Positions 38,401 through 58,266 of a stretch of 64,000 bases of DNA are shown in pieces. The number at the start of each line of letters is the position of its first letter. Position 1 is the first letter of the stretch. The DNA comes from Niastella sp. (GTDB lineage Bacteria; Bacteroidota; Bacteroidia; Chitinophagales; Chitinophagaceae), in the NCBI GenBank assembly GCA_017744515.1, contig JAGIBF010000021.1:21981-85980 (forward strand). Direction: 5' to 3'. The notes beneath the pieces are model-generated. The model did not search any database, was not told the DNA's origin, and saw only the letters and a program-made list of their open reading frames with translations. The position numbers and the translations under genes are program-made.

Positions 38401-41400
38401 CTTTGGAACCAGGCGGAACAGCTTCTTACCAGTTGGTCACTAACCTAAGCAATGTATTTGTTATTCACGATATTGGCAGAAAAGGTGATAAAGAAGAAAG
38501 AAAGTTGCTTACACTGAATGGCAATAGCCCTGTCTATACATTACCCGTCACAGAAAATGATCGCGGTGGGCTGGGACTGCAGGTCGCTTTCGTAAAGCAC
38601 AACCGCATTTACAGCAATGGCGCCATTGTGCTTGTACCTTACACCAATAAAGAGCTCACTATTTCCTATACTACCTACCGGGATAAAACATTGCCCGGAA
38701 GTGCAGAAAAATGGAAAGTAAAGATCAGTGGTAACAAGAGCGACCAGGCAGCAGCTGAAATGCTGACAGCCATGTATGATGCTTCGCTCGACCAGTTCAG
38801 TCCACACAATTGGAACAAGCCTTACTTATGGCATGATTATAACCTTCGTGGAAGCTGGAATGGCAGCCAATGTTTCCAGACGGTGCAATCGCGGGAAAAG
38901 CCCGACCGGAATGACGACTATGCCTCCTTCAACAAATCATATGATGAATTGATAGGCGATCAATATTCCGGTGGTGGCGCACGCCATATGAAGCTGGCAA
39001 AAACAGAGCTTGCAGTACGTGGAATGGCAAACATGGCAGCGCCATCCGTCCGGTCAAAAGCTAACGCGCTCGATGAAGTAACTGCAGGAATATCAGCAGG
39101 AAACGTCAGTCAAAAAGAAGGCAAACGTGGTGAGGAAGCCCAAGATCAGTTCGCACTTCCATTTACAGCAATTCCTCCGGTTACTCTGTCGGCTGATGCG
39201 CCCACCGTTCAACCCCGCAAGAACTTCAATGAGACAGCTTTCTTTTTTCCCGATCTGCATACAGATGCAGCAGGCAATGTAGAATTTTCCTTTACTATGC
39301 CCGAAGCACTGACCGAATGGAAATGGATGATACTGGCGCATACCAAAGAACTGGCGATGGGCTATAGCGAGAAGAGCATCATCACACAGAAAGAGCTGAT
39401 GGTGCAGCCCAATGCGCCTCGCTTTATGCGCGAAGGCGACCGCATGGACTTCAGTAGCAAGATCGTGAACCTGAGCAGCAAGGAACTTACCGGACAGGTA
39501 GAATTACAACTGATCGATCCCACCACCAACCAATCGGTAGATGGCTGGTTCAGGAATGTCTTCCCCAACCAGTTCTTCACGGTAGCGGCTGGCCAAAGTA
39601 TACCGGTTACCTTCTCATTGGAAATACCTTATCAATACAACAAGCCACTCACCTACCGCCTCGTGGCAGCCACCAAAGCGGGCCCCAATGAAACTGCCCT
39701 GAGCGATGGCGAAGAAAACATGCTACCGGTAGTGAGCAACCGTATGTTGGTCACTGAAAGCCTGCCTCTACCGGTGCGCGGCAATGTGACTAAAACCTTC
39801 ACTTTCGGCAAGCTGTTGAAAAGCGGAGAAAGTGAAACACTGAACCAGCATGCTTTAACGGTCGAGTTCACCAGCAACCCGGCCTGGTATGCCGTGCAAG
39901 CGCTGCCCTACCTGATGGAATATCCTTATGAGTGTGCAGAGCAGGTGTTCAACCGGTATTATGCCAATACATTGGCAACCTCTATCGCTAATGCATCGCC
40001 CCGTATCAAGGCCATCTTTGAGCGCTGGAAAACTGCCGACACCGCTGCTCTGCTCAGCAACCTGCAGAAGAATGAAGAACTGAAATCGGTATTGCTGCAG
40101 GAAACACCCTGGGTGCTGGAAGCAAAATCGGAAGCACAACAAAAGAAGAATATCGCCTTGCTGTTCGACATGGTAAGGATGAGCAAAGAGCAGGCATCGG
40201 CACTCGACCACTTGCAGGACCTGCAAACCTCCAATGGTGGTTTTGTATGGTTCCAGGGCGGCCGCGACGACCGGTATATCACACAATACATCCTTACCGG
40301 CATCGGTCACCTCAGGAAACTGAAAGCCCTGAAAGAAGGCGATGCCATAAAGGATGTTATCAAAAAAGCGATCCCTTATCTCGACAACGCTATCAAAAAG
40401 GATTATGATGATCTGTTGAAGACCAATAAAGGCAAAGAACCTGTAGAGGCCCTCAGCAGCATTCAGATCCAATACCTGTACATGCGTAGCTTCTTCCCGG
40501 AACATACTATACCTACCGTCTCCCAAAAAGCCTACCAGTACTTCAGAAAGCAGGCGCAGGCCCATTGGGTGAAGCAAAGCAAATACATGCAAGGCATGAT
40601 TGCACTGGCACAATACCGCACCGGCGACACTAAAACAGCTACCAGCATTATGGCATCGCTGAAACAAAATGCGCTGGTGAGTGAAGAAATGGGCATGTAC
40701 TGGAAAGCCACACCCGGCTACTATTGGTACCAAAGCCCCATCGAAAACCAGGCTTTGCTGATAGAAGCATTCACTGAAGTATCGAAGGATATGAAAGCAG
40801 TGGCCGATATGAAGACCTGGCTGCTGAAACAAAAGCAAACGCAGAACTGGAAAACAACAAAGGCCACTGCCGATGCCTGCTATGCCCTGCTGTTGCAAGG
40901 CACCGACTGGCTGGCCAACACGCCCGAAGTACAGATCAACCTCGGCAACTATGCCATCCGCTCTGCCGACCAGCAGGCAGAAGCCGGCACCGGATACTTC
41001 AAAAAAGTAATCGATGGCAAAGATGTGAAACCAGAGATGGGCAATATCAAAGTAACCTTCTCTTCTCCTGCACCAGCCGCTGCCGAATCTGTATCCTGGG
41101 GCGCTGTATACTGGCAGTATTTCGAGAACCTCGATAAGATCACTACAGCAGCTACGCCTTTACAGTTGAGCAAGAAGCTGTTTGTGGAAAAGCTCACTGA
41201 CCACGGCCCGGTATTGCAGCCCATCAATGAAGGTGACGCACTGCAGGTAGGCGATAAAGTGAAAGTACGTATCGAGCTGCGGGTAGACCGCGCTATGGAA
41301 TATGTGCACATGAAAGATATGCGCGCCGCTTGCATGGAACCTTTGAATGTATTGAGCAGTTACAAATGGCAGGGCGGACTGGGTTATTATGAAAGCACCA

Positions 41401-41582
41401 AAGATGCGAGCACCAACTTCTTCTTTGGTTACCTGCCCAAAGGCACCTGGGTATTTGAATATCCTTTATTCGTAACCCATACCGGTACCTTCAGCAACGG
41501 CATCACCAGCATTCAGTGCATGTATGCCCCTGAATTTACCAGCCATTCCGAAGGCATTAAAGTGAATGTAGAAGCAAAATAA
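35442..41582 (+). CDS. Alpha-2-macroglobulin family protein (2046 aa), exported
   Basis: Signal peptide; TDRSIYRPGQTVYFKGI, LPEALTEWKW-type region (FTMPEALTEWKWMILAHTKE), CAEQ thioester motif encoded at 39933-39944. Confidence 0.92.
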   Translation: MSVKQVIFLVLCSLFLITATAQQKMNTYEKAWKKIDSLIQVKGLPQSAFTEVNKIYTQAKQEKNDAQLIKALIYRAQLRDIKEEEPQYGTIKELETEITQNSGAARAVLQSITASMYWNYFQSHRWQLYNRTATVDFNKADIATWGTEDFHKKIGELYLSSLKEEKLLQQTKLEPFDPIITKGNVRHLRPTLFDLLANHALTYFQSSERDIKKAADAFEIDDPVAFADARTFATHKFRITDSTSLHAKALQLHQRLISFHLADAQPDALIDANINRLTFVNMYAVMSDKKELFRKALEQVTGTYNNHPIAAQAWFLLADTYFDEGNTYDPLKDTTQRYALLKVKEICEKVIAQKEPSEGKANCQNMLNTLLKRHILLQTEKVNVPNQPFRVLVTWRNVTTLHFRVVKMDKKTMDNLGNDTWSDAYWKKLTSLPVLSTFTQQLPDTKDYQQHRTEIKAPALPIGEYAYLVSADSDFSIGKNVLAVQGFYVSNLAYINKSNDYFVLNRETGAPVPRATVQVWYRNYDSKVRDYVERKGENLFTDKDGYFTLTPSKTNNENYSRIEVSTKEDHLSMADYEYSYNYPQTQEKSRNTSYLFTDRSIYRPGQTVYFKGIVINSRSQSNQHAIVANLKTRILLLDVNDQQVDSIQVTTNAYGSYSGKFTLPSNALNGTFNIRDEQTEGFANISVEEYKRPKFFTEIAKPAGSYRLNDSIKVTGTAKAYAGNNIDGASVKYRVVRNVIMPLWYGYGFGKRVWPPYGTQEVEIAHGTATTQADGTFSVTFKALPDLKVDKKDQPTFQYTISADVTDINGETRSGSTTISVAYQALRMEVVTPNKLHSDSIKNVQVTTTNFNNLFEQAKVTLTMHKLKTPGRIFRSRYWEQPDQFVMSLQEYQAAFPYDIYKNENEVSTWEKGEKVLEVTDTTAANGKFAALASSAKAVTAGWYVIEAVTKDKFGETVKAIRYVELYNQPGSQNPMGYADIEVYNDALEPGGTASYQLVTNLSNVFVIHDIGRKGDKEERKLLTLNGNSPVYTLPVTENDRGGLGLQVAFVKHNRIYSNGAIVLVPYTNKELTISYTTYRDKTLPGSAEKWKVKISGNKSDQAAAEMLTAMYDASLDQFSPHNWNKPYLWHDYNLRGSWNGSQCFQTVQSREKPDRNDDYASFNKSYDELIGDQYSGGGARHMKLAKTELAVRGMANMAAPSVRSKANALDEVTAGISAGNVSQKEGKRGEEAQDQFALPFTAIPPVTLSADAPTVQPRKNFNETAFFFPDLHTDAAGNVEFSFTMPEALTEWKWMILAHTKELAMGYSEKSIITQKELMVQPNAPRFMREGDRMDFSSKIVNLSSKELTGQVELQLIDPTTNQSVDGWFRNVFPNQFFTVAAGQSIPVTFSLEIPYQYNKPLTYRLVAATKAGPNETALSDGEENMLPVVSNRMLVTESLPLPVRGNVTKTFTFGKLLKSGESETLNQHALTVEFTSNPAWYAVQALPYLMEYPYECAEQVFNRYYANTLATSIANASPRIKAIFERWKTADTAALLSNLQKNEELKSVLLQETPWVLEAKSEAQQKKNIALLFDMVRMSKEQASALDHLQDLQTSNGGFVWFQGGRDDRYITQYILTGIGHLRKLKALKEGDAIKDVIKKAIPYLDNAIKKDYDDLLKTNKGKEPVEALSSIQIQYLYMRSFFPEHTIPTVSQKAYQYFRKQAQAHWVKQSKYMQGMIALAQYRTGDTKTATSIMASLKQNALVSEEMGMYWKATPGYYWYQSPIENQALLIEAFTEVSKDMKAVADMKTWLLKQKQTQNWKTTKATADACYALLLQGTDWLANTPEVQINLGNYAIRSADQQAEAGTGYFKKVIDGKDVKPEMGNIKVTFSSPAPAAAESVSWGAVYWQYFENLDKITTAATPLQLSKKLFVEKLTDHGPVLQPINEGDALQVGDKVKVRIELRVDRAMEYVHMKDMRAACMEPLNVLSSYKWQGGLGYYESTKDASTNFFFGYLPKGTWVFEYPLFVTHTGTFSNGITSIQCMYAPEFTSHSEGIKVNVEAK

Positions 41583-41673: not shown

Positions 41674-41710
41674 GCCGGCCACTCTTTGAAAGGGTGGCCG
41701 GCTTATTTTT
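41674..41710 (+). terminator. Rho-independent terminator after the A2M gene
   Basis: gccggccac...gtggccggc hairpin followed by ttattttt. Confidence 0.75.
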
Positions 41711-41715
41711 GCAGC

Positions 41716-42771
41716 ATGCATACCGACTTCCTCATCGTAGGCCAGGGCATTTGTGGCACTTTCTTAAGCTGGTACCTGCAACAGGCAGGCTTTTCTTTCC
41801 TGGTCATCGATCAGCCTCAATCCAATACCGCTTCCAAAGTAGCGGCAGGCATCATCAACCCGGTCACCGGCAGGCGTATTGTAAAAACATGGCTCATCGA
41901 TGAGGTCATGCAGTTTGCACACAAGGCTTATTCGGAACTGGGGCAGGTACTCAACATCACGGCTTTTGAGCAAAAAAGTATCGTCGACTTCTTTGCCACA
42001 CCGCAGATGCGGGATGCTTTTGCAAAGCGGTATGCAGAAGATACACAATACCTGTCGCTGTCTGCAGCTCATCATAGCTGGCTGTCTTTATTCAATTATG
42101 ATTTTGGCTATGGAGAGATCGATCCCTGTTACCTCATCAGGCTGCAGGATATTTTACCAGCTTACCGTACTCATTTGGAACAACAACAATTACTACGCGA
42201 AGAACTGTTTGAGATAGATCACCTGCAGGTGGCGCCTGATGGTATTACTTATAAAGATATTACTGCCTCCCGCATCATCTTCAGTGATGGCATTGCCACT
42301 GCTCAAAACCCATACTTCAGGAACCTGCCTTTTGCCCCCAACAAAGGCGAAGCCGTGTGGGTGGAGATCAACGATCTGCCAGCCACACACATCTTTAAAA
42401 AAGGCTTCAACCTGGTGCCGTGGAAGGACAACATCTTCTGGCTGGGCTCTACTTACCTGTGGGAGTTTGACAACGACCTGCCTACACCCGGTTTCCGCCA
42501 GTTTGCCCACAACTGGTTGTTGCAAACCGTCAAGCTGCCTTTCAACATCATCGACCACAAAGCCGCTGTGAGGCCCGCTACCCTTGAGCGCCGGCCCTTC
42601 GTGGGATTCCATCCACAGCATCCTGCTGTAGGCATCTTTAATGGCATGGGCACGAAGGGTTGTTCACTGGCCCCCTGGTTTGCCCATCAGTGGGTACAGG
42701 CTATTAAGGGAGAAGGGACCTTATCGCCAGAAGCCGATGTGAAGCGCTTCCAGCGTGTGTTGGCGAGATAA
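41716..42771 (+). CDS. FAD-dependent oxidoreductase (DAO/glycine oxidase-like)
   Basis: FLIVGQGICGTFLSWYLQQAG dinucleotide-binding motif; VAAGIINPVTGRR. Start moved to ATG 41716 because the earlier start falls in the terminator. Confidence 0.85.
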   Translation: MHTDFLIVGQGICGTFLSWYLQQAGFSFLVIDQPQSNTASKVAAGIINPVTGRRIVKTWLIDEVMQFAHKAYSELGQVLNITAFEQKSIVDFFATPQMRDAFAKRYAEDTQYLSLSAAHHSWLSLFNYDFGYGEIDPCYLIRLQDILPAYRTHLEQQQLLREELFEIDHLQVAPDGITYKDITASRIIFSDGIATAQNPYFRNLPFAPNKGEAVWVEINDLPATHIFKKGFNLVPWKDNIFWLGSTYLWEFDNDLPTPGFRQFAHNWLLQTVKLPFNIIDHKAAVRPATLERRPFVGFHPQHPAVGIFNGMGTKGCSLAPWFAHQWVQAIKGEGTLSPEADVKRFQRVLAR

Positions 42772-43998: not shown

Positions 43999-45516
43999 TT
44001 AATACCCAAAGTTTTGCTTCATATTAGGATTGCCATCTACTTCACCAGTAGGTATCCGGGGCAGCAACTTGAAGTCGGTTGCCGGCAGGTTCACTGAAGG
44101 AAGTGTTTTTGAAATAGCTGTTCCGGTACGTTTCAGATCAAAGAAACGGTGGCCTTCAAAAGCAAACTCCAGCATACGCTGACGCAAAATTTCATCCAGT
44201 AAAGCCTGACCGGAAAGGTCTCTTGGTGATGGAGCTGTAAAACCAGTATAGCGTGCAGTACGAATAACATTCAGATCGGCCCAGGCGCCAGCTTCGTCAT
44301 TTTGACGGTATTTGGCTTCAGCCCTGTTCAGGTACAATTCAGCCCAACGGAGTACTACTGTATTATCCCAGTTAGCAGAACCGTTCTTACCCATCCATTT
44401 GGTACACTCTACATAGCGCCCGGATGCGTTAACACCATACTCAAACAACTTGTTCCTCACATCATTGCTGAAAGCAAGTACAGGATAGCCTGTGGAAGGT
44501 GCTACCAGGTCTGGTGGGAAATTGGTAATACCCAACTCCGTGAGCAATTTGGCATTGGGAACCAGGTCGCCCTGACCCTGGCGGGTAGCATTCAATGAAC
44601 CCGGAGCAGGTAAGGTAGTATGTGTAGCGGCCAGTGAAGTATTAACACCAAGGTTTTCTGCCAGTGTAGCATACCACACCTGGAAGATACCTTCCGGATG
44701 ATCGGCAGCTCTCCAGCCCGTTACATAGTTTGCAGCGGTAGACAGACTGCCAATACCACCACTAAGCGCAATAGAAGCGGTTGCAAAAGAATCGGCTTTG
44801 GCCCAATTGCCCTGGTACAAAGCTACACGGGAGCCGAGTGCCAATGCTGCATGCTTGCTGGCATAGTTACGGCCACGGTTAGCATTGGATAATGTAGCAA
44901 TAGTAGCGTACAGGTCGGTCATGATCTGCGCATACACCTCAGCAGTTGTGGCACGCGCCGGATAAAAAGAAGCGGCGTCGGAAGCATTATCAAAACCTTT
45001 CAACGTCAGCACAACACCACCTCTATCCTGAGCAGGAACTACGAAAGTGGGAATATAAGCGTAGTTTTTCACCAGGTCGAAATAATACAAAGCGCGCAGG
45101 AACTTGAACTCACCTTCCCAACGGGTTTTATCAGCAGCAGTGGCATCCGTCACTTTATTGATGGCAGCAAGCGTAAGGTTGATCTCATTGATCACACCAT
45201 AAGCTGTGCCCCAGTTGGCCATATTGGCGGCAGACTGGTTACGGTTTTCACTGAGCAATCTCGATGAACGTCCATTTGCGAAAGCTACATCAGCCATCGC
45301 TTCCGCCACAGAGAACATATCGCGACCATATAATCGTTCGCTTTTCAAAACGGAGTAAGCAGAGTTTAAAGCAGCTTCAATACCTTCCTTATTGGTAAGG
45401 GCAAGAGAAGCGTCCAGCGAGTTGCGGGAAGGAATATCCAATTGCTTTTTACAGGAGGGCGCTACCAGACCTGTAATAAGAGCAGCTATGATTAATTTGT
45501 TCGTTATCTTTTTCAT
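43999..45516 (-). CDS. SusD/RagB-family outer-membrane lipoprotein
   Basis: LVAPSCKKQLD lipobox; LRALYYFDLVKNYAYIPTFV; VLRWAELYLNRAEAKYR; EFAFEGHRFFDLKR. Confidence 0.95.
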   Translation of the reverse strand: MKKITNKLIIAALITGLVAPSCKKQLDIPSRNSLDASLALTNKEGIEAALNSAYSVLKSERLYGRDMFSVAEAMADVAFANGRSSRLLSENRNQSAANMANWGTAYGVINEINLTLAAINKVTDATAADKTRWEGEFKFLRALYYFDLVKNYAYIPTFVVPAQDRGGVVLTLKGFDNASDAASFYPARATTAEVYAQIMTDLYATIATLSNANRGRNYASKHAALALGSRVALYQGNWAKADSFATASIALSGGIGSLSTAANYVTGWRAADHPEGIFQVWYATLAENLGVNTSLAATHTTLPAPGSLNATRQGQGDLVPNAKLLTELGITNFPPDLVAPSTGYPVLAFSNDVRNKLFEYGVNASGRYVECTKWMGKNGSANWDNTVVLRWAELYLNRAEAKYRQNDEAGAWADLNVIRTARYTGFTAPSPRDLSGQALLDEILRQRMLEFAFEGHRFFDLKRTGTAISKTLPSVNLPATDFKLLPRIPTGEVDGNPNMKQNFGY

Positions 45517-45538
45517 ACTTGTTTTTTGAGGGATACAA

Positions 45539-48500
45539 TTAAAGTCTCACTTGAATACCTGCAGTCATGTTCTTGGACTGGGGAATAGTACCAGTGTTGG
45601 AACCGGTATATTCGGGATCATAACCATTCCACTTGGTATAAGTCCACAGGTTAATACCCTGAACATATACACGAATTCCTTCAAACGAGTATTTCCTGAT
45701 CAATTTGGCAGGTAGTTCATAAGACAATGTAATCGTCTTTAAACGCACATAGTCAGTTTTATAATAATAGCGGGTACCAGTAGCCCAGCTTACGCTATTA
45801 ATTTCAGCCATGCCATTCACAGGGCGGGGCACATCAACAATGTCGCCAGGTTTTTGCCAGCGCCCATAAAAGCCTTCCTTCAGGGTATTAACACCTGTGC
45901 CACCCATGCGCATCATTTGCTGGAATTGCTCGTCGGGTCTTACACGGCCATATTCATACTGCAGGAATGCTTCGAGACTCAACCCTTTATAGGAGAAAGT
46001 GTTTGTCCATCCACCATAATGAGTTGGATATACATTACCGACTACCTTCCTGTCTGCATCCAGAGGATTGTAAGTAATGTTTCCACCCTTATCATACCAC
46101 ATACCACGACCGGTAGCAGGATTTACGCCGGCCCACTCTGCCAGGTAGAAAGAACCCAGCGATTCGCCTACCCGGATAGTAGCATCACCAGGCAATGCCT
46201 GCAAGCCATCATACAACTCCTTTACCTTATTCTTCTGGAAGGAGATATTGAAAGAAGAGTTCCACTTGAACGCGCCATCAACCGGTTTTACGATCAACAG
46301 TAACTCAAGACCTTTATTTTCTACAGACCCGAGGTTCTGGGTAATACTGGAGAAACCAGTAGTAGCATACAGGGAGCGGCTCAATAACAAGTCTTTGTTG
46401 ATCTTACGATACACATCGGCAGTTAATGAAACACGGCCATTCAGGAAAGCTACATCCAAACCAATGTTATGCTCTTCGCGGGTTTCCCAGCTGAGGTCGG
46501 GGTTACCCAGCTGTGTGGGGTTGATGGCAGAACTATTGCCATATATCCGGGCAGCACCATACAATTGTCTGAATTGCGTATTGCCAATCTGGTCATTACC
46601 AGCCTGACCAAATGAGTAACGGACCTTAAGGTCGGAGATGGCATCCACGTTAGCCAGGAAAGATTCTTCCTTGGCATTCCAGGCTAACTGTACCGATTGG
46701 AAAACACCATACAGGTTATTGGTACCAAAACGGCTGGAACCGTCACGGCGAACAGTATAATTTAAAATGTACTTATCGCGGTATGTGTAACCTACCTTGG
46801 CAAACTGCGAGAAAGCAGCATTACCATTCCACTGACCACTTACACTGCTGGCAGTGGAAGCAGCACTCAGGTACCTCAACTGGTAAGAAGGGAAGCCTTG
46901 TGCATCGGCCTGGAACCATTGGTTCTGGTCTTTCCTGAACTCGATACCCAACAAGGCATTCACACTATGATCTTCCGCAAACGTTTTACGGTAGTTGGCT
47001 GTAGTATTCGTAATAAAGTTGACATTCCAGTCAGTTTGGTTGCTCAGACGGCCTTTTACTGCATAGGCGTCATTGATACGGGGATCCTGGTAACGCTCAT
47101 CCTGCGTAAGCCTGTAATCCAAACCAGCCATAGTTCTCAAGGTCAGTTCAGGGAGTACATTATACGTCAATGACATATTTGCCAGCAGCGAGTTGGTACG
47201 TGTGAAATAAGTGATGTAATCCGCTACTGCCAGGATATTGTGGTTAAAAGAACCTACCAGTGCCTGACCTGAACCGGGCATACCATAATAAGTACCATCC
47301 GGGTTATAAATAGGGTTGATAGGCATCATCATGGAAGAAGCGTAAGCCGGGTTACCGAAACCGGTATTACCTGTGCTATAAGGTGCATTCTGAGAGAATG
47401 TGCTCAGGCTGATACCATTGTCGAGCGTTAGCTTTTTGCTGATCTTGAAACTGATCTTGGAAAACAAAGTAGCACGCTGGAAATCCGTAGGCTGGATGAT
47501 CGCGGTTTGCTTGGAATAAGCACCGGAAAGGTAATAGTTCACATTCTGGTTACCACCCTGCATAGTAGCTTCCACGCTGGTGATCTTTCCTTTGTGAAAA
47601 GAAGCATCCTGCCAATCGTAAGTAGGCAGGCTGTCGATGCCTTTATCATCAAGGCTGGTTGATACGCCAAGCGAGCTCAACACGCTCGTTCTGATAGCAG
47701 CAGGAGTCATATTAGGATTGGCATTAGCTACAGCTTCATAACGAACTTTATACCATTCCTGGGTTGTCAAAGGATCTACGAGTTTTAAAGCGGAGGATTC
47801 ACCATAGTAAGCGCTGGCAGTATATTTTGTTTTTCCTACCAACCCCTTTTTAGTAGTAATCAGCACTACACCATTCGCAGCACGTGCACCATAAATGGAA
47901 GCAGCAGCCGCGTCTTTCAGGATTTCAATGGATTCAATATCATCAGTGTTCAAAAAGCTCAACGGGTTGTTCTGTGTATTGATAGAACCGACGCTGGTAT
48001 TCAACTGTACACCATCTACGACATACAGTGGATCGTTACCTGCATTGATAGATCCAACACCACGAATACGAACGTTCATGGTACCACCGGGGATACCATT
48101 GGCAGCCGTGATGTTTACACCTGCAGCACGACCCTGCAATGCCTGTGCAAAAGAAGGCATCGGCAAGTTATCGATCTCAGAACCGGATATCTTGGAAATA
48201 GCGCCAGCCACATCCTTTTTACGGATGGCCTGGTAACCAACTACCACCACCTGGTCCATGGTTTTGTTAGCATCTGCGAGGGAAACATTCAGGGTAGCTG
48301 AACTACCGATAGCAACCTCTTTGGTTTCGAGATCAATGGAAGAAAATACGAGGATCTTTCCGGAAGCAGGAACCCCGATCGAGTAAGTTCCATCTGATTT
48401 AGTGGTAGTACCTACCTGGGTACCTTTTACAAGTACTGAAACATTGGGAATAGGGGTTCCCTTTTCATCAGTCACTTTCCCGGTAATTGTCCGGTTCTGT

Positions 48501-48559
48501 GCCAGCAATGAGCTGCAAAGAAATAGCAAGCCCATGGCCAGTGCCAGAATTTTTCTCAT
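45539..48559 (-). CDS. SusC/RagA-family TonB-dependent receptor
   Basis: ITGKVTDEKGTPIPNVSVLVKGTQVGTTTKSDGTYSI, VVVGYQAIRKKDVAGAISKISGSEI plug, NDPLYVVDGVQL, SIYGARAANGVVLITTKKG. Confidence 0.96.
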   Translation of the reverse strand: MRKILALAMGLLFLCSSLLAQNRTITGKVTDEKGTPIPNVSVLVKGTQVGTTTKSDGTYSIGVPASGKILVFSSIDLETKEVAIGSSATLNVSLADANKTMDQVVVVGYQAIRKKDVAGAISKISGSEIDNLPMPSFAQALQGRAAGVNITAANGIPGGTMNVRIRGVGSINAGNDPLYVVDGVQLNTSVGSINTQNNPLSFLNTDDIESIEILKDAAAASIYGARAANGVVLITTKKGLVGKTKYTASAYYGESSALKLVDPLTTQEWYKVRYEAVANANPNMTPAAIRTSVLSSLGVSTSLDDKGIDSLPTYDWQDASFHKGKITSVEATMQGGNQNVNYYLSGAYSKQTAIIQPTDFQRATLFSKISFKISKKLTLDNGISLSTFSQNAPYSTGNTGFGNPAYASSMMMPINPIYNPDGTYYGMPGSGQALVGSFNHNILAVADYITYFTRTNSLLANMSLTYNVLPELTLRTMAGLDYRLTQDERYQDPRINDAYAVKGRLSNQTDWNVNFITNTTANYRKTFAEDHSVNALLGIEFRKDQNQWFQADAQGFPSYQLRYLSAASTASSVSGQWNGNAAFSQFAKVGYTYRDKYILNYTVRRDGSSRFGTNNLYGVFQSVQLAWNAKEESFLANVDAISDLKVRYSFGQAGNDQIGNTQFRQLYGAARIYGNSSAINPTQLGNPDLSWETREEHNIGLDVAFLNGRVSLTADVYRKINKDLLLSRSLYATTGFSSITQNLGSVENKGLELLLIVKPVDGAFKWNSSFNISFQKNKVKELYDGLQALPGDATIRVGESLGSFYLAEWAGVNPATGRGMWYDKGGNITYNPLDADRKVVGNVYPTHYGGWTNTFSYKGLSLEAFLQYEYGRVRPDEQFQQMMRMGGTGVNTLKEGFYGRWQKPGDIVDVPRPVNGMAEINSVSWATGTRYYYKTDYVRLKTITLSYELPAKLIRKYSFEGIRVYVQGINLWTYTKWNGYDPEYTGSNTGTIPQSKNMTAGIQVRL

Positions 48560-49187: not shown

Positions 49188-50261
49188 TCAATTATTTTTA
49201 AAAGGTATATGACCTTTGGAAACCTTCCATATATAGCCATCGATGATATAATGTGTGATCTGCGGAAGCGCCAGTAAAGGAACCAGCAATACCAGGATAT
49301 CTTTATCAGGATTGAATGCGATTGACTGGAAAATACTGAACACTGTATCATGCTCCTTCCACACCCACGCATCCCAGAAACCTTCTTCCACATAAGCTAA
49401 CAGCATCATACTCAATACAAACAACACGGCGCCGTACCCGGTAAACAATTGTTTCACCAGCTTACCGTAGGACTTGTTGCCAGCTTGTGTGCTTTTCTTT
49501 CGTCCATATATCCAGATCAATGCCATATAAGGAATTCCGTGCGATACAACGTTGAGCAGCGTAAAAGCCATATCACCATTAAAATATACGATACCGAAAA
49601 ACCAGGAGAGAAAAGTACCGGTTATTATAAAATTACGGGGATAGTTGAAAAACTTTTCCTTGTACACATATACAACCTCTTTCATTATATATACGGCAAT
49701 TACCAACAGATAAATAATAGCAGCAACCCTTGCAACAGGCGCAGCCTGGAAATAAAAGAAATCACCATCCACAAACCAGTGGAAGTTGCGGGGCGCATGC
49801 AGGTGCCAGTATAACAACGGATAAATAGTAGCATAATAAATAGCTACCTGGTCGATGCGGTAATACCATTTATTGTGCGGCTCCCTGCGTGAGTAGATAC
49901 GCATAAAACCATACTGCTGCCGCACAAAATGAAACACCGCGAGGTAAGCAAGCACCCGCCAGAAAAGTATCGCATCGATATAATACAACAACACAGCAAC
50001 AACAAACCCAGCAAGAGGAATACCGATCAATACATGCTTCTGTTGACGAAAAGTATCCTTATCAAAATACGTTCGATACAGCGTGCTATAAACGTGGGCC
50101 ACATCAATGAATACAACCAGTATCAACCATGCAGTAACAGGAATGCCCGATGAAGCCGTAAACAAACCGGGAAACAAGAAAACGATCAGCAGGGAAATAA
50201 ACGGCGGCGACAGTATGAAGATACTGTCCAGCTTCAACGAATATATCCATGGTTGCTTCAT
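49188..50261 (-). CDS. His-rich multi-TM membrane protein of unknown function
   Basis: 357 aa, many TM segments; DVAHVYST, AVFHFVRQQYGFMRIYSRREPHN, WHLHAPRNFHW, VSHGIPYMALIW. Confidence 0.75.
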   Translation of the reverse strand: MKQPWIYSLKLDSIFILSPPFISLLIVFLFPGLFTASSGIPVTAWLILVVFIDVAHVYSTLYRTYFDKDTFRQQKHVLIGIPLAGFVVAVLLYYIDAILFWRVLAYLAVFHFVRQQYGFMRIYSRREPHNKWYYRIDQVAIYYATIYPLLYWHLHAPRNFHWFVDGDFFYFQAAPVARVAAIIYLLVIAVYIMKEVVYVYKEKFFNYPRNFIITGTFLSWFFGIVYFNGDMAFTLLNVVSHGIPYMALIWIYGRKKSTQAGNKSYGKLVKQLFTGYGAVLFVLSMMLLAYVEEGFWDAWVWKEHDTVFSIFQSIAFNPDKDILVLLVPLLALPQITHYIIDGYIWKVSKGHIPFKNN

Positions 50262-50291
50262 GCGTTAAGTTAAGTTGTCACCCCAAAGCAA

Positions 50292-50337
50292 TGTCACCCT
50301 GAGTTTGTCGAAGGGTTTCGACAGGCTCAACCTGACA
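50292..50337. repeat. Dispersed palindromic element, copy E
   Basis: tgtcaccctgagtttgtcgaagggtttcgacaggctcaacctgaca. Confidence 0.75.
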
Positions 50338-51943
50338 TGCGTGCTTTCAATACAGATTCTGCAGCCTGCAAGCCCTGGTAAAATCCTTCTTCAAAAATAG
50401 AGATTCCCGCCAGGTCGGTATGTGCAAAAAAGATGGTGTCATTAATAGATTTGTTCAACAACCTGCGCGCATCACTGTGAATAAATCCCTTCACCGGCCT
50501 GATCATGCCATGTCCCCATACCATCACATCGATATTCGTTACAGCAGCAGCGATGTTCTCATGTACCTTACGCAGGTCGTTCAAAATAATATCCACCCAT
50601 TGCTCATGTTGCATGGCCGCAGCCTCGCGCCTTGCCGTTACTACATCACCCTGTGTTAGTGGCAGATAATAAGTAAGTACTTTCACCGGCTCACGTTGCT
50701 TTATGGATTGATGCGTGGCCACCACATAACCCAGCGATTCACTATTGTACAATACATTGTCCCAGCTCAATGCTTCCCCTCTCCGCTCCTTCAGTTCCTG
50801 CACGGTGATATTGGCCACCATCCACGGCGCATAAGAAAATTGTTGCACCAGCTGTTGCCGGTTGAGTTCAGGCGCCAGCATGCGCTGCGCCACAAACTGC
50901 GGTATTGCTACAACACATTGCTTTGCATGGACAGCTTGCAATTGTCCGGTGGCTACATTCATATACAAAACTTCCACACCTCCGCCAGTTGGTCGTATAC
51001 TGGTAACGAGGCTATTCAGCTTTATCTTATCGCGGTAATCCTTTTGCAATTGCTCCACCAGCCAGCCATTGCCCTGTGGCCAGGTCAATACATCCTGGTG
51101 TTCGGCATTGGCACCTTTTCCTTTGCGGGCAGCAAAATAATGAATGCCTGCCCAGGCGGCCGTTTCATCATAGCGCGTACCAAAATCATCGCGGCAGCAG
51201 TAATTACAATACCAATGCAGGTATTCGGAAGTATAGCCCTGTTGCAGTAACCACTCTTTCATAGTGATGCCATCCAGCTTTGTATACTGCTCATCAGCAG
51301 AAGAGTGATTCACGGGAATAGCAAAAGCATCTTTCCCATCCTGCCCCTCTGCATAGCGCAGCTGGTGCATATGATCGAGAAAACGTTGTACTTGTTTCAG
51401 ATCTTCAGCGGGTACACCATTTCTTGGCACCAACCCCTCCTGCCAGGAACCATTGATGTACAGGCGTTCCTCCGGATCAAAACACAAATGATATTCATTG
51501 TAAACAGGTAGCCCTTCACTATTATAACCAGTAACTACATTACATTCCTGCAAAAAGGATAAATAATCTTTGAGGTCATTATTGGGGATAGGCACATAAT
51601 GAGCGCCCCAGGGATAACGGCTTACGTTATTTTCACCGGCGGCAGCATTGCCCCCTGCATGCGCTTCAAGGTCCAGCACCAGGAAATCCTGCACGCCCTG
51701 TTTATATAAATGACGGGCTGCAGAAAGACCGCTAACACCAGCGCCCACAATCACCACTTCAGCCTGTGTAGTGCTTTGCGGAGCCCCTTGTATCTTTTTA
51801 TCGCGCAACAGGTGACCCACTTTTGCAGACGCACCAACAATGCGGCCGGGAATTTTGTGCTGTCCCGTCGTTTGACATTGCGATAGCAGGAACCCCGTTC
51901 CTGTTAAAGCAGCTACCTGTTGTATGAAGTTTCGGCGTTGCAT
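50327..51943 (-). CDS. FAD-dependent amine oxidase-like protein, putative Tat-exported lipoprotein
   Basis: RRNFIQQVAALTGTGFLLSQC (twin Arg plus lipobox-like); VVIVGAGVSGLSAARHLYKQG; amine-oxidase-like GNAAAGEN...GAHYVPIP. Confidence 0.85.
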   Translation of the reverse strand: MQRRNFIQQVAALTGTGFLLSQCQTTGQHKIPGRIVGASAKVGHLLRDKKIQGAPQSTTQAEVVIVGAGVSGLSAARHLYKQGVQDFLVLDLEAHAGGNAAAGENNVSRYPWGAHYVPIPNNDLKDYLSFLQECNVVTGYNSEGLPVYNEYHLCFDPEERLYINGSWQEGLVPRNGVPAEDLKQVQRFLDHMHQLRYAEGQDGKDAFAIPVNHSSADEQYTKLDGITMKEWLLQQGYTSEYLHWYCNYCCRDDFGTRYDETAAWAGIHYFAARKGKGANAEHQDVLTWPQGNGWLVEQLQKDYRDKIKLNSLVTSIRPTGGGVEVLYMNVATGQLQAVHAKQCVVAIPQFVAQRMLAPELNRQQLVQQFSYAPWMVANITVQELKERRGEALSWDNVLYNSESLGYVVATHQSIKQREPVKVLTYYLPLTQGDVVTARREAAAMQHEQWVDIILNDLRKVHENIAAAVTNIDVMVWGHGMIRPVKGFIHSDARRLLNKSINDTIFFAHTDLAGISIFEEGFYQGLQAAESVLKARMSG

Positions 51944-51944
51944 A

Positions 51945-53447
51945 TTATTCCAGGTAAGTACTCCATTCCTCTTCGAAGTAGTCGACCAGCGCCTGGTTAT
52001 TGAGTTTATTCACAGCAAGCGGTTTCGTGGTGCGCATATCCTGTGGAAATACAAACATCTGCTGTGCCGTAGCAACATTGATAAATCGCAGCCCGGGAAC
52101 ATAGACCGTAGGCGCGTGATACACACTGTCCTTCATGGCCAGTATATAACCCCACTCTCCAAAAGAAGGTACAAGATTATGATAAGGCGCCGTATGAAAC
52201 CCTACCGAACGGATGGTTTCATCGATGCACCAGAAAGAGCGCGGCGCCACGTAGGGAGAAGTAGATTGTACCACTGCTATTCCTTCCGGCTTCAACGCCT
52301 GGTACAGCAGCTTATAAAAAGTATTGGAGTATAATTTGCCAATGGAGAAATTAGAAGGGTCAGGAAAATCAACCACCACAAAATCAAACTGCCGCCTGTT
52401 ATCCCGCAGCCAGGAAAAAGCATCCCCATTGATCACATGCACCCGGCTATCGAGTAAAGAACCTTGATTAAGGCTTACCAACATAGAGTTGGAAGTAAAC
52501 AATTTGGTCATGGCAGCATCGAGGTCAACGAGCGTGATCGAGTCCACCGAGCTGTATTTAAGTATCTCACGAATAGCCAGTCCATCACCGCCGCCCAGTA
52601 CCAATACCTGCTTAGGCGATCGCACAGCTTGCAGGCCAGGATGCACCAGTGCTTCATGATAGCGGTACTCATCGGCTGAACTGAATTGCAGGTTGCCATT
52701 CAGGAACAGGCGCGTTTCCTTTTTATTGCGGGTAAGAACAATACGTTGATAAGGAGAAGAAGTAGCAAATACAACACGGTCATTATACACCAGCGTTTCG
52801 GAATAACTAAGTATCCTGTTAGATAATACAAAAGCCACCAATTCCGCAAGGATGAGGAAGATGGCCATCGCCCGCAACACGCCAGGTCTTTTGATCTCCC
52901 TGCTGAATTTGATTGCCAGGAATAAACCTACGGCAATATTGAGCATACCGAAAAACAAAGAAGTGCGCATCAAACCGAGATAAGGCACCAATAACAGCGG
53001 AAACAGTAACGATGCCAGCAGCGCACCGATATAATCAAATGTAAATACACGCGATACCAGTTCTTTAAACTCTACCTTGTCCTTCAATATCCGCATGAGG
53101 ATAGGTATCTCAAGCCCCACACCGGCGCCGGTTAAAAATACCAGCACATATAATACAATCCGGAAAGAAGCAGAAAGCGGGAATACAATAAACAACAACA
53201 TGGCGCTGAAACCGCCGATCAATCCCACCAGCAACTCAATTTGAATGAACCAGCGCAGCAGGTTCCGGTTGAAATAACGTGAAAGAAAAGACCCCACACC
53301 CATGGAGAAAAGGTACACACCGATGATCGTGGAAAACTGCGTAACAGAATCACCCAGCAGGTAACTGGCGAGGGTGCCAGCAACCAGCTCATAAATTAAC
53401 CCACAGGTGGCAATAACAAAAACCGCCAGCAACAACAGCAACTGCAT
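51945..53447 (-). CDS. Membrane-embedded spermidine-synthase-like aminopropyltransferase
   Basis: N-terminal TM bundle, then LNGNLQFSSADEYRYHEALVHP, VLVLGGGDGLAIREIL, VVDFPDPSNFSIGKLYSNTFY. Confidence 0.88.
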   Translation of the reverse strand: MQLLLLLAVFVIATCGLIYELVAGTLASYLLGDSVTQFSTIIGVYLFSMGVGSFLSRYFNRNLLRWFIQIELLVGLIGGFSAMLLFIVFPLSASFRIVLYVLVFLTGAGVGLEIPILMRILKDKVEFKELVSRVFTFDYIGALLASLLFPLLLVPYLGLMRTSLFFGMLNIAVGLFLAIKFSREIKRPGVLRAMAIFLILAELVAFVLSNRILSYSETLVYNDRVVFATSSPYQRIVLTRNKKETRLFLNGNLQFSSADEYRYHEALVHPGLQAVRSPKQVLVLGGGDGLAIREILKYSSVDSITLVDLDAAMTKLFTSNSMLVSLNQGSLLDSRVHVINGDAFSWLRDNRRQFDFVVVDFPDPSNFSIGKLYSNTFYKLLYQALKPEGIAVVQSTSPYVAPRSFWCIDETIRSVGFHTAPYHNLVPSFGEWGYILAMKDSVYHAPTVYVPGLRFINVATAQQMFVFPQDMRTTKPLAVNKLNNQALVDYFEEEWSTYLE

Positions 53448-53465
53448 ACAAAATAATTACCCGGA

Positions 53466-53669
53466 TTAGTGAATAGCCGACGCCACAATAATAGCAATGG
53501 CCAGCATAAAGAAGCCCGCCACAATGGCCAGCGCGATATTGTGCTTTTCAACGATCTCTTTCCAGAGATTGTGTTTAGGGGTCAGCTTCTCTACGATCAC
53601 AAAAGAGATCACGAGCACAGCGATCCCAAGAAATGAATAGATCAGAGAATTTACGAGTGCTGTTTGCAT
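53466..53669 (-). CDS. DUF350 small membrane protein (YjfL-like)
   Basis: 67 aa, two TM helices, VNSLIYSFLGIAVLVISFVIVEKLTP pattern. Confidence 0.8.
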   Translation of the reverse strand: MQTALVNSLIYSFLGIAVLVISFVIVEKLTPKHNLWKEIVEKHNIALAIVAGFFMLAIAIIVASAIH

Positions 53670-53686
53670 ATAGATAAATTGAATAA

Positions 53687-53845
53687 TTATTTATGATAAC
53701 CGGGGCCGCTGGAGCTCCACGTTTGTTGAGAACCAAATGAAAATATACGCCAGCCGGTATAATTGGCATACGTCATACCACCTGCCAGCAGCAGGGCCAG
53801 GATATAATACCATCCAAGCCTTTTTATATTGGGGTTGTTGATCAT
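53687..53845 (-). CDS. 52-aa membrane protein absent from the ORF track
   Basis: MINNPNIKRLGWYYILALLLAGGMTYANYTGWRIFSFGSQQTWSSSGPGYHK*; ATGA overlap with the stop of the upstream DUF4178 gene. Confidence 0.75.
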   Translation of the reverse strand: MINNPNIKRLGWYYILALLLAGGMTYANYTGWRIFSFGSQQTWSSSGPGYHK

Positions 53846-55746
53846 TCGTCATTGGTTGAATAAGGTGAAAAAGCACTGTTCTCCCATCGGATCTTTTCGC
53901 GGTTGCGCGCATACAGGAACGCACCTAAGCCCGGTATAATAGCCATCAGAACGAAAATAAAAAAGTTGCGCCACATGGCTACGTCATACTTCGCCTCGAT
54001 GGTATAGTAAGCAGGCGAACTACCCACAGGCTTCGTAGCCATGATCTCCATGAAGTAAGTACCCTTCGGCAAATATTGTATAAACTCATCCGTTTCGGTA
54101 CTGCCTTCCGACCAGGACTCACCACCTTCATAGCCACTATAATACTCCACGCCTTCTTCAATAGTATATTCCGTTCCATTGTCGGCATTGACGAGTGTGA
54201 TGTTCGCTTCGAACCAGTTGTTGACAACAGGCGCCTGCAACGTCACCAGCAGGTTTGCCCGGGATTTGTCCAGCTTGAATTTAGACGTAACTACCTTATG
54301 ACTGGTCAGTGTATCTTCCAGGTACCACGTATTTTCAAACACCACTTCATTGCGCAGAAAGACATTGCCAATCAGGAACACGAACAAAAAAATAAGTACC
54401 ACACCTATTATAGATATCCGCAGAAAAGCAGGGTCAACAACGCCCCTTACCGGCTGTATAGCGCCAATCCCCGATTGATAAGGCAACGAAACTTCCTGAC
54501 CAAAAGCAGCATACAGCTCATTACGGCTGATCGACTCTCCGTGATACCAACAAAGGCCATTGGGATGCAGCTCACGCGCCCATAGTTCTGGCGGGCAGAT
54601 GAACTCCTTACAACCTATATTATCATGCTTGAACACATCGCCCGGAAACTCACCATAAGCATCGGAAATATTAAAATGATAACCATTGTACAACTGGAAT
54701 TCATCCGTACCATACTCCAACCAATCACTTTGCGACTTCCTCATCACCGGCGCCACCGCCGTTTCCCGCAGGAATATCCAATGCCCATTGTATTCGGAAA
54801 GAAAAGCATAACCCCGTACAGGATTAAATAAAGTATATTCCCTCCACGACCAGCCATGCGCGTCTTGCTTCACCGCAAAACCGATCATTTCATACTCTAT
54901 CCCCTTCAGCACGCCCTTCGCGTATAAAGGGATAGCAGGACTTTTATCATGCTTCATCCGCCGGCGAAACTTCACCCGCCCATCTACATAAGATAAGGCT
55001 GCTCCGCAATGCTTACAATTCCATGATTGTGACAGCGGAAAGGACTTTAACTCACCCGGCTTATTACAATGCGTACAAGTATATGTTTTAGTAACCTTAC
55101 CAATCTGCAATTGACGCAGCTGTTGAAAATTGAAATCTTCAAACGCCAGGTAATGAATACGGAAGTTGAGATAAACCTGGTTCTCCAGGTTTAACAATTC
55201 TAACCTGTCGCCACCTTCACTGGCCATTTCCAGGCTCGTAAACTCACCATTCCAATCGAATACCCAGGTCTCGCCTTCCACTTCAATGCTTTTGCACGTG
55301 TTTTTGCGCTCCAGTATGTACCACTTATTATCGATCGACTCCAGGAAACCATCACCGAATCCCAGTCCACTTACTTTGAAATAAGGCATCTTGGGATCGG
55401 GCGGTATCTTCTCATAAACGGCCAGCTGTCCATAGCAATCTACCAACGTATGCAGCGTACCATCTTCAAAATAAATACTCCAGTTATTGGCATAATCCTC
55501 TTCAAACAAACAACGCACCCGTCCAATAACGGTGAATTTCTTTCCGTGCCATACACCTGTAGTGCCAATCTGGATAGGCGTAAGCGTATCCTGCGCCTTC
55601 ACCATTAGCGGCTTTTCCTTCAACACGCCGTCATCCCATCGCTGCAGCCGGTTGCCACATTGATGACATACGATCAAATTGGTATCGCGCGAACGAAAAG
55701 TAAGAACCGATGAACAGGAGGGGCAGGTATGAAGGGTTAATGACAT
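53842..55746 (-). CDS. Zinc-ribbon / DUF4178 protein with duplicated modules and C-terminal membrane domain
   Basis: CPSCSS...CHQCGN and CTHCNK...CKHCGA, each followed by a DUF4178-like beta domain; TM segments near the C-terminus. Confidence 0.82.
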   Translation of the reverse strand: MSLTLHTCPSCSSVLTFRSRDTNLIVCHQCGNRLQRWDDGVLKEKPLMVKAQDTLTPIQIGTTGVWHGKKFTVIGRVRCLFEEDYANNWSIYFEDGTLHTLVDCYGQLAVYEKIPPDPKMPYFKVSGLGFGDGFLESIDNKWYILERKNTCKSIEVEGETWVFDWNGEFTSLEMASEGGDRLELLNLENQVYLNFRIHYLAFEDFNFQQLRQLQIGKVTKTYTCTHCNKPGELKSFPLSQSWNCKHCGAALSYVDGRVKFRRRMKHDKSPAIPLYAKGVLKGIEYEMIGFAVKQDAHGWSWREYTLFNPVRGYAFLSEYNGHWIFLRETAVAPVMRKSQSDWLEYGTDEFQLYNGYHFNISDAYGEFPGDVFKHDNIGCKEFICPPELWARELHPNGLCWYHGESISRNELYAAFGQEVSLPYQSGIGAIQPVRGVVDPAFLRISIIGVVLIFLFVFLIGNVFLRNEVVFENTWYLEDTLTSHKVVTSKFKLDKSRANLLVTLQAPVVNNWFEANITLVNADNGTEYTIEEGVEYYSGYEGGESWSEGSTETDEFIQYLPKGTYFMEIMATKPVGSSPAYYTIEAKYDVAMWRNFFIFVLMAIIPGLGAFLYARNREKIRWENSAFSPYSTNDE

Positions 55747-55758
55747 GAGGCCGTACTG

Positions 55759-56112
55759 TTATCGTTTTATTTGTTGACAGGAAATAATACCGGCGCCGAA
55801 AAACGCTACCAGCTCATCAAACAATTGCCGCCCCGTATCATCATTGTAGCGTTGGTAGTTGGACAAATAAATATCCAGGTTCACCCGCTCATATTCCGGC
55901 CAGGTGTGCAGGGAAATATGCGATTCACTCAGGCAGATCACCGCCGTAAAACCACCGGGCTCAAAATCATGGTACACCTCCCCCAGCTTGCTGAGGCCGT
56001 GCTTTATTACCTGTGTATCCAGTAATGCTTTTACTGCTGCGGACCTTTCAAGCAGGTGCTTTTGAGAAGAGGATATCTCTGCAATGATGTGTAAGCCAGG
56101 TTGATAATTCAT
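55759..56112 (-). CDS. speD: SpeD-family pyruvoyl-dependent decarboxylase (AdoMetDC-like)
   Basis: CLSESHISLHTWPEYERVNLDIY matches the SpeD self-cleavage region. Confidence 0.85.
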   Translation of the reverse strand: MNYQPGLHIIAEISSSQKHLLERSAAVKALLDTQVIKHGLSKLGEVYHDFEPGGFTAVICLSESHISLHTWPEYERVNLDIYLSNYQRYNDDTGRQLFDELVAFFGAGIISCQQIKR

Positions 56113-56250: not shown

Positions 56251-57096
56251 TTAAGCCGCGATCTTATTGGCAGTATTCACGATCACAGAGGGGTCCTGGC
56301 GCAGCAAATGCGTCATCGCCTTGTACAGCTCCGGCAACTCATGACGCAGGCGAATAGGATTCTCGAAGAATACCTCTACACTCACCGCCCAGAATTCATG
56401 ATAATTGCTGCCGGCATAGTCGCCCAGAATATTCTTAGCCCCCTGTTGCATGGATTCAAAAATAGGGCGCGCCACTTTAGAGAAGTTCTTGAACTCTTTT
56501 TTGAAGTGCTTATCTTCTTCGGTCTTGGTCACAAAGTTTACCCACGCCAATGCATGACCCATTTCATGCAAGCCAACATTGCAGTTGGTAGATTCGCCCT
56601 TAATTCCTTTCAGGAAATTATCCCAGGATAAATAAATACCACTCAGGTCTACATGCCCCTGAAACGGACGCGAATAAAAACCATAATGATAATCATCCTT
56701 GATCACAAAAATATCCCTGAAGTAATTCAATGAATACTTCTCCAATCCAAAAGTGAGCTGTATAGCAGCAGCGCTGATCAGAATGGGCATTTCAGCACTC
56801 TCACTCACCTCTATATAATGGAAGCGTTTGGCTTTGCGGAACAAATAAGTGCGGAAAAGGAATTTACGTTGCTCTTCGAGGTTCAACCTGTTATAATAAC
56901 GGTAGTAACGCGAAATGATAGAATGATAAAACGTTTCTTGTGCGAGAAATGATTTGTACTGACGTTTAACATTAAGGCGGTTGATCCACTCACCCACCGG
57001 ATTCTGGAGAATGAGGATGCTTGTAACCACCAGGAAAATGATCAAAATTTCCATAAGGGTCCATTTTTTCTTTCTGTGAATAGGTACGCGAGCCAC
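56251..57096 (-). CDS. M90/MtfA-like zinc metallopeptidase, membrane-anchored
   Basis: HEMGHALAWVNF (HEXXH); N-terminal TM; MtfA-like LISAAAIQLTFGLEKY. Confidence 0.82.
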   Translation of the reverse strand: MARVPIHRKKKWTLMEILIIFLVVTSILILQNPVGEWINRLNVKRQYKSFLAQETFYHSIISRYYRYYNRLNLEEQRKFLFRTYLFRKAKRFHYIEVSESAEMPILISAAAIQLTFGLEKYSLNYFRDIFVIKDDYHYGFYSRPFQGHVDLSGIYLSWDNFLKGIKGESTNCNVGLHEMGHALAWVNFVTKTEEDKHFKKEFKNFSKVARPIFESMQQGAKNILGDYAGSNYHEFWAVSVEVFFENPIRLRHELPELYKAMTHLLRQDPSVIVNTANKIAA

Positions 57097-57273: not shown

Positions 57274-58266
57274 TTAAACATTTTCTACCGGACTTAGGAG
57301 AACATTGCCCGTTAGAATATCCTGATTTAGCAATACACACATAGCTGCATATAATTCAGGCAATTGTATCTTAAAAGAGGTAGGACGTTCGAAGAAATTC
57401 TCTACACACACGGCCCAAAACTCCTCGTAGCGCGTAGCAGCATAGCGCCCCAGGAAGCCACCGGTATGGTCCGATTGCATATCCTCGAACACAGCACGGC
57501 CGGTTCTTGAAAAACGTACAAACCTGTCATGAAAATCATCATCCCGGCCATCCTCCACATTAAAGTTCACATACGCCAGCGCGTGAGCCATTTCGTGGAG
57601 ACCTACATTATCACCATCCTGGTAATTGTCATAACCCTTCAAAAAATTACTCCACGACAAATAGATCCCATCATGCGTCACATGCCCCTGGAAAGGCACA
57701 CTGTTGAAACCATAATGATAATCATGGTGCATCACATATATCTTTTCAAAATGCTCCATCAGGTAATGTTCCAATCCGAAAGTAAGTTGTACAGCAGTGG
57801 CGCTGATGAGTAGCGGCATGCGTTCTTCAGGAGCGATCTCTACGTATTCAAATTGCTTGGTGGTCATGAACACTACCGTGCGGCGCACAAACCTTTCCTG
57901 TTCAGCAGGCGGCAGGTTGCGGTAATAAGGCAGGTATTGCTGAAGAATAGCGTGATAGTCAATTTGCTTGTCGTCATAAACCCCCTTCGCCTTCAGAGAA
58001 TAGAAAAACAAGCGCAGTCGCTGCGGAAAGCGGGGAAAAAACAACCTGATCAAAAGAACACCCATGAAAATGCCAAACAGCCAGTTGCCCACCCAATCAG
58101 CCCTGTATTGCTGCTTCCCGGTCATAACATGCACGCGCTGAAGCAGCAAAGCTGTATCTGTCCGGACAGGCTCTTGCACCGTGCGGTAAACAGTATCCCC
58201 CTGGAAGCCCATCAATATATAAGTAGAATCCTGCGGCATGAGCCTAAAATAATCATTTCCGGTCAC
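57274..58266 (-). CDS. M90/MtfA-like zinc metallopeptidase, paralogue of the neighbour
   Basis: HEMAHALAYVNF; MPLLISATAVQLTFGLEHY...HYGFNSVPFQGHVTHDGIYLSWSNFLKG parallels 56251-57096. Confidence 0.82.
   Translation of the reverse strand: MTGNDYFRLMPQDSTYILMGFQGDTVYRTVQEPVRTDTALLLQRVHVMTGKQQYRADWVGNWLFGIFMGVLLIRLFFPRFPQRLRLFFYSLKAKGVYDDKQIDYHAILQQYLPYYRNLPPAEQERFVRRTVVFMTTKQFEYVEIAPEERMPLLISATAVQLTFGLEHYLMEHFEKIYVMHHDYHYGFNSVPFQGHVTHDGIYLSWSNFLKGYDNYQDGDNVGLHEMAHALAYVNFNVEDGRDDDFHDRFVRFSRTGRAVFEDMQSDHTGGFLGRYAATRYEEFWAVCVENFFERPTSFKIQLPELYAAMCVLLNQDILTGNVLLSPVENV

Follow-up and report, generated by a model that had tools for sequence, protein, structure and literature searches.

The described operons that come closest to the gene set reported here, a seven-gene operon in a 64,000-nucleotide stretch of Niastella sp. 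DNA (contig JAGIBF010000021.1 of assembly GCA_017744515.1, positions 21,981 to 85,980; this whole stretch is called the window below), include ones with membrane-fused relatives of spermidine synthase. The second group of PMC11237479 is a PspA/CesT operon with genes for a spermidine-synthase-like protein that carries a transmembrane domain (TM-SpeE), DUF350, DUF4178 and a lipoprotein, and the third group and its variants are operons with a glutathionylspermidine (GSP)-synthetase-like ATP-grasp protein, S-adenosylmethionine decarboxylase (AdoMetDC) and polyamine oxidase; polyamine or aminopropylation chemistry tied to membranes was proposed in that work. In the window, the gene order along the minus strand is SpeD, a DUF4178 membrane protein, a small protein with a transmembrane helix (TM52), DUF350, TM-SpeE, an FAD amine-oxidase-superfamily protein (FADox) and a polytopic membrane protein with conserved histidines (HisTM). 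Clusters of AdoMetDC, a fusion of spermidine synthase (SpdSyn) with a major facilitator superfamily (MFS) domain, and DUF350 are said to have been described by Li et al. in 2019, who reportedly argued for aminopropylation of a non-polyamine acceptor and not of putrescine; such fusions reportedly failed to complement a SpdSyn deletion, and spermidine was said to be absent. To our knowledge, decarboxylated AdoMet has one accepted use, the making of free polyamines. The gene set of the window is real, strongly conserved and functionally coherent, and on balance we lean towards the view that its seven genes form one functional unit, a dedicated envelope system for aminopropyl transfer and oxidation.

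A TM-SpeE alignment was searched once against 84,980 species genomes and yielded 80 named loci with their flanks, and 11 more from a Bacteroidota sample brought the number of TM-SpeE neighbourhoods to 91. It should be noted that these loci were chosen for their similarity to TM-SpeE, and that counts over the 91 therefore describe the companions of this TM-SpeE; the sample free of that bias consisted of 198 Bacteroidota genomes. The first-pass annotation of the operon, which had been made from the letters of the window, staked its reading on these families recurring together in other genomes, and when this was examined they did so: DUF4178 was a neighbour in 82 of the 91 neighbourhoods, FADox in 81, DUF350 in 77 (with a median gap to TM-SpeE of 1 nt), SpeD in 69 and HisTM in 60. 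Gene order was mostly the same as in the window, in loci from about ten phyla (Bacteroidota, Verrucomicrobiota, Acidobacteriota, Nitrospirota, Nitrospinota, Spirochaetota of the Leptospiraceae, Melainabacteria, Bdellovibrionota, Myxococcota and Pseudomonadota), and such conservation of order excludes chance. Within the 198 genomes, the FADox subfamily occurred in exactly 5, with every copy adjoining TM-SpeE and none elsewhere; close HisTM homologues occurred in 4 and the DUF4178 subfamily, at a set cut-off, in 4 only, all of them inside the operon. SpeD was present in 12 of 12 TM-SpeE genomes as compared with 43 of the 198 overall (Fisher p 3e-9). The gene set was not found in seven other members of the window organism's own family, and this absence, together with its rarity and patchiness, suggests horizontal spread or frequent loss.

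A small open reading frame (ORF) with a transmembrane helix was observed between DUF4178 and DUF350 in 81 of 82 eligible loci, 77 of these TM52 ORFs having been found by script and four more by inspection; a profile detected 34 loci only. All but one of the 77 script-found ORFs end in HK (76/77), and GGK occurs in some Acidobacteriota. When the 2484 TM-like short ORFs of all loci were considered, 83 ended in HK or GK, and nearly all of these were TM52. Its dN/dS was about 0.16 in Flavobacterium, with dS near saturation. Net charge is +1.4 before the helix and -0.5 after it, from which the tail is predicted to be periplasmic. The presence of TM52 tracks FADox, not TM-SpeE: both occur in 79 loci, neither in 8, and one only in 4, among which L075 is a contig end. 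TM-SpeE outgroups without FADox were also without TM52. The invariant C-terminal lysine of TM52 is an attractive, if unproven, candidate acceptor for aminopropyl transfer.

TM-SpeE scored 672 bits (cut-off 472) with NCBIfam PRK03612 (NF002956), the family of polyamine aminopropyltransferases with an N-terminal membrane domain, over positions 19-521 of 522. In an AlphaFold2 (AF2) model of the protein (mean pLDDT 90.9), the catalytic domain comes after seven long helices. Lysines plus arginines averaged 10.8 on the N-terminus and loops 56-66, 117-133 and 178-191, and 2.0 on the three other loops, a bias that ran in the same direction in 92 of 92 TM-SpeE homologues; the seventh helix was hydrophobic in all 92, with a net charge of +1.8 before it and -1.6 after it. 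With seven helices and so strong a positive-inside signal, the N-terminus is most likely inside and the catalytic domain is predicted to be periplasmic. The cysteine content of the catalytic domain, 0.54% vs 0.71%, was uninformative as a signal of location.

Residues for donor binding and catalysis are kept in TM-SpeE (Y263 H264 E265 GGGD288G D310 D360xPD363P Q394), as in canonical SpeE, but the acceptor-site pair of the canonical enzymes is not. The Glu of QxE and the Tyr of TYP, each at 100% in canonical SpeE (n=17), are replaced by Thr396 in 97% and by Phe429 in 95% of the 92 homologues, respectively. By motif these positions correspond to Glu231 and Tyr264 of PfSpdS, the spermidine synthase of P. 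falciparum, where both are among the active-site residues (PMC4342090). With the pocket so altered, putrescine is a less likely acceptor. The nearest solved relatives of the catalytic domain, with Foldseek among the methods, were the Thermus triamine/agmatine aminopropyltransferase and plant thermospermine synthase, which in printed alignments likewise lack the acidic QxE residue.

The FADox sequence (Amino_oxidase, 62.9 bits vs a cut-off of 19.8) has an RRNF signal of the twin-arginine translocation (Tat) type and a lipobox-like LSQC; at its N-terminus, MQRRNFIQQVAALTGTGFLLSQC, a twin-arginine motif is followed by a hydrophobic stretch. The strict form RRxF was present in 55 of 77 FADox N-termini and Cys was frequent at the lipobox place; from the twin-arginine signal, FADox is predicted to be exported by Tat in a folded state. 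For HisTM, a 45-sequence alignment showed D53, H56, H111, R114, Q115, Q116, H241, E292, E293, Q334, H337 and D341 to be invariant; in an AF2 model (mean pLDDT 92.8, pTM 0.91) they lie in or near helices, and they suggest a metal or proton site. Comparison with the PDB gave no significant match for HisTM, with a best Foldseek E of 0.74 by fold and zero HMMER matches at E<=1 by sequence. Weak HisTM homologues (E about 1e-15 to 1e-21) were present in 10 Bacteroidota genomes. Six loci of distant relatives (L136-L141; 390-434 aa) belong to other Bacteroidota families and have varied surroundings without TM-SpeE, with no recognisable functional partner from which HisTM function might be read. Such relatives indicate that HisTM is part of a wider uncharacterised membrane family.

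The ESH...HTWPE processing and catalytic core of SpeD is intact, including the pyruvoyl-forming Ser, the catalytic His and the Pro of WPE, and the TIGR03330 score was 71 bits, 4.5 under the cut-off of 75.65. Its conserved Pro and its partnership with TM-SpeE favour AdoMetDC over an ornithine or arginine decarboxylase; the SpeD-derived ornithine decarboxylase SpeDC has four diagnostic residues, Gln, Thr, Phe and Tyr (PMC10407285). A natural Cys-to-Ser replacement was seen in the SpeD of many Bacteroidota operons (in the window and among L032-L122), the catalytic position being Ser in loci of the Chitinophaga/Cytophaga type, whereas Flavobacterium and most of the other phyla have Cys there. The DUF4178 protein consists of two zinc-ribbon plus DUF4178 units, a transmembrane helix, a predicted periplasmic beta-rich domain and a second transmembrane helix, and all eight zinc cysteines are invariant. 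It had been called duplicated at first pass, which was borne out: the window gene is a fusion whose halves are separate genes in about 26 other loci. The case for internal duplication is made by these split genes and not by BLASTP, in which the two halves gave no significant match to each other. In the PDB, this protein found weak zinc-ribbon-type matches only.

The genome as a whole has one SpeD gene and one SpeE-like gene, both in the operon, and no carboxynorspermidine decarboxylase scored above the cut-off; with an assembly completeness of 93%, these absences are provisional. The genome does have a gene of the deoxyhypusine-synthase family and, elsewhere than in the operon, an arginine-decarboxylase-like gene, so that the operon need not be the source of its ordinary polyamines. 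A deoxyhypusine synthase homologue, SpeY, makes homospermidine (PMC10407285). The earlier remark that no putrescine-forming gene was seen holds for the operon genes, the arginine-decarboxylase-like gene being elsewhere.

In the mechanism that we propose, SpeD would decarboxylate S-adenosylmethionine in the cytosol, as its family suggests, and TM-SpeE, with its 7-TM transporter-like domain and its aminopropyltransferase domain, would aminopropylate an acceptor other than putrescine at the membrane. With a catalytic domain that faces the periplasm the donor would have to be moved across the membrane, which might be done by the TM domain itself, by the mini-DUF350 protein or by HisTM. FADox would oxidise a periplasmic amine, possibly the aminopropylated product, and the DUF4178 protein (zinc ribbons inside, beta domain outside) and TM52 may serve as scaffold, regulator or substrate. 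A bolder version, which we consider a long shot, makes TM52 the substrate: TM-SpeE would aminopropylate its periplasmic C-terminal Lys, or the neighbouring His, FADox would oxidise the product to give a peptide-borne cofactor or cross-link, and HisTM would be a further membrane enzyme of new fold. If true, this would be an extracytoplasmic analogue of hypusine formation.

Several observations weigh against an envelope system of this kind. A periplasmic catalytic domain is unexpected, the donor being made in the cytosol; it would need an export of decarboxylated AdoMet that is without known precedent, and positive-inside predictions can fail with a fused soluble domain. FADox resembles solved amine oxidases over the FAD-binding N-terminus only and no Lys is conserved across its homologues, so that its substrate, and even the substrate's being an amine, is inferred. 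HisTM is lacking in about a third of the loci, though some of these loci are truncated. Also, a Ser occupies the catalytic Cys position of the window SpeD (C83 in T. maritima; motif table of 70 homologues).

If the topology prediction misleads, as through one helix that forms a hairpin or does not cross the membrane, the aminopropyltransferase domain could be cytosolic, and an inner-leaflet lipid head group or membrane amine would be modified, flipped and then oxidised by FADox. This arrangement agrees with established biochemistry, in which the donor and by-product recycling are cytosolic, and with the proposal of polyamine or aminopropylation chemistry on membrane structure in PMC11237479, but it has to contend with seven confident helices and a charge bias consistent in 92/92 homologues; we regard it as possible, though rather doubtful. 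We think it unlikely that SpeD and TM-SpeE make ordinary spermidine or another free polyamine for export and for degradation by FADox in the periplasm. The NCBIfam name of TM-SpeE, polyamine aminopropyltransferase, accords with such a route and the arginine-decarboxylase-like gene could supply putrescine for it; however, the acceptor-pocket residues are changed, the deoxyhypusine-synthase-family gene offers an alternative triamine route, and the fusions of Li et al. 2019 reportedly did not complement a SpdSyn deletion, with spermidine reportedly absent. Of the pathway put forward at first pass, in which a polyamine-like compound is made at the envelope and then oxidised or attached, the envelope part is upheld by the conserved operon, the predicted Tat export of the oxidase, the membrane-fused aminopropyltransferase with its changed pocket and the other polyamine route, whereas the evidence does not lead to a free polyamine as product or as substrate of the oxidase, and the pocket speaks against putrescine.

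The operon might instead be an envelope-stress module akin to the PspA-linked TM-SpeE operons, one that senses polyamines or membrane state and whose enzymes are regulatory. TM-SpeE, DUF350 and DUF4178 are indeed common to the window and the PspA group of PMC11237479, and PspA-like gene sets were recovered among our own loci (L036, L039-L041). Yet pspA and CesT/Tir had zero matches among the window operon genes and the lipoprotein gene was not found there, and the PspA-type TM-SpeE, which comes without TM52, FADox and HisTM, lies on a long branch outside the separate clade formed by the window type; we hold this explanation to be improbable.

If decarboxylated AdoMet is indeed spent at the envelope, together with a dedicated exported oxidase, bacterial membranes would gain a further modification chemistry. 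With this gene set, a TM52 that ends in HK and the altered pocket, the acceptor question of these fusions becomes directly testable, and culturable carriers include Flavobacterium, Pedobacter, Hymenobacter and Chitinophaga. HisTM, which lacks a solved relative, is in addition a target for structural work. As far as we have checked, TM52, the topology signal of TM-SpeE and the change in its acceptor pocket are new, as are the Tat-exported oxidase, the HisTM fold and the observations on the other polyamine genes of the genome.

The coordinates of the operon are given in Table 1. The seven genes proved to be co-directional and tightly packed, as first described, with intergenic distances that run from -4 to about 65 nt; the DUF4178 and TM52 genes overlap by 4 nt, and 1 nt separates TM-SpeE from FADox. 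Family scans gave zero matches for TM52 and HisTM. The terminator that had been proposed as the upstream boundary was located as a hairpin on the minus strand; it was the strongest in a scan that as a whole was barely above shuffles (14 vs 11.1).

Table 1. Features of the operon in the window, listed in the direction of the minus strand
Feature	Coordinates	Strand	Description	Family evidence
SpeD	55759-56112	-	SpeD-like pyruvoyl S-adenosylmethionine decarboxylase, class 1b, 117 aa	Pfam AdoMet_dc, 78 bits
DUF4178 protein	53842-55746	-	Membrane protein, 634 aa	Pfam, 40 bits, on second copy
TM52	53687-53845	-	52-aa protein, N-terminal TM helix and short polar tail ending GYHK	
Mini-DUF350	53466-53669	-	67 aa, two TM segments	Pfam DUF350, 56 bits
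TM-SpeE	51945-53447	-	7-TM domain (residues 2-207) and aminopropyltransferase domain (224-500)	
FADox	50327-51943	-	FAD amine-oxidase-superfamily protein	Amino_oxidase domain
HisTM	49188-50261	-	Polytopic membrane protein with conserved His	No family matched
Terminator-like hairpin	56203-56173	-	14-pair stem, between upstream M90 gene and SpeD	

Upstream of the operon are two adjacent M90 (MtfA-like) metallopeptidase genes (56251-57096 and 57274-58266, minus strand), and such a pair is likewise upstream of the operon in Niastella caeni (L043). Downstream, at 43999-48559 on the minus strand, a SusD-family gene adjoins a TonB-dependent-receptor-like (SusC-like) gene. A 2046-aa bacterial alpha-2-macroglobulin-like protein is encoded at 35442-41582 on the plus strand, and after it, at 41686-42771, comes a DAO-type FAD oxidoreductase.

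The partners in the operon had been called uncharacterised at first pass, and this stands for TM52 and HisTM, of which no description was found in a literature search that was light on subscription papers, but not for the set as a whole, since related sets are described in PMC11237479. In the accessible literature FADox, TM52 and HisTM were not tied to the gene set, and searches on COG4262, on homospermidine in Niastella and on membrane-domain spermidine synthase operons gave nothing useful. A PspA-type envelope stress operon was rejected for the window, PspA and CesT being absent. The PspA/CesT operon of PMC11237479 shares the TM-SpeE, DUF350 and DUF4178 families with the window, but it has PspA, CesT, a lipoprotein and a long DUF350 and is without FADox, TM52 and HisTM. 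Judged by size and sequence, L036, L039, L040 and L041 are CesT-PspA-DUF4178-lipoprotein-DUF350-like TM-SpeE operons, with an apparent K+ channel after TM-SpeE in L040. The ATP-grasp/AdoMetDC/oxidase operons of PMC11237479 resemble the window in having AdoMetDC and an oxidase beside DUF350, and differ from it in their ATP-grasp gene, of which there is none at the window. L037 and L038 show a third arrangement, in which TM-SpeE diverges from SpeD and from a protein of 388 aa that by eye is like an ATP-grasp of the glutathionylspermidine-synthetase type. The Thermus enzyme and plant thermospermine synthase are soluble and act on free polyamines, whereas TM-SpeE is membrane-fused. Finally, the clusters of Li et al. 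2019, which reportedly have no HK-tailed small protein, HisTM or topology argument, have SpeD, a membrane-fused SpeE and DUF350 in common with the window.

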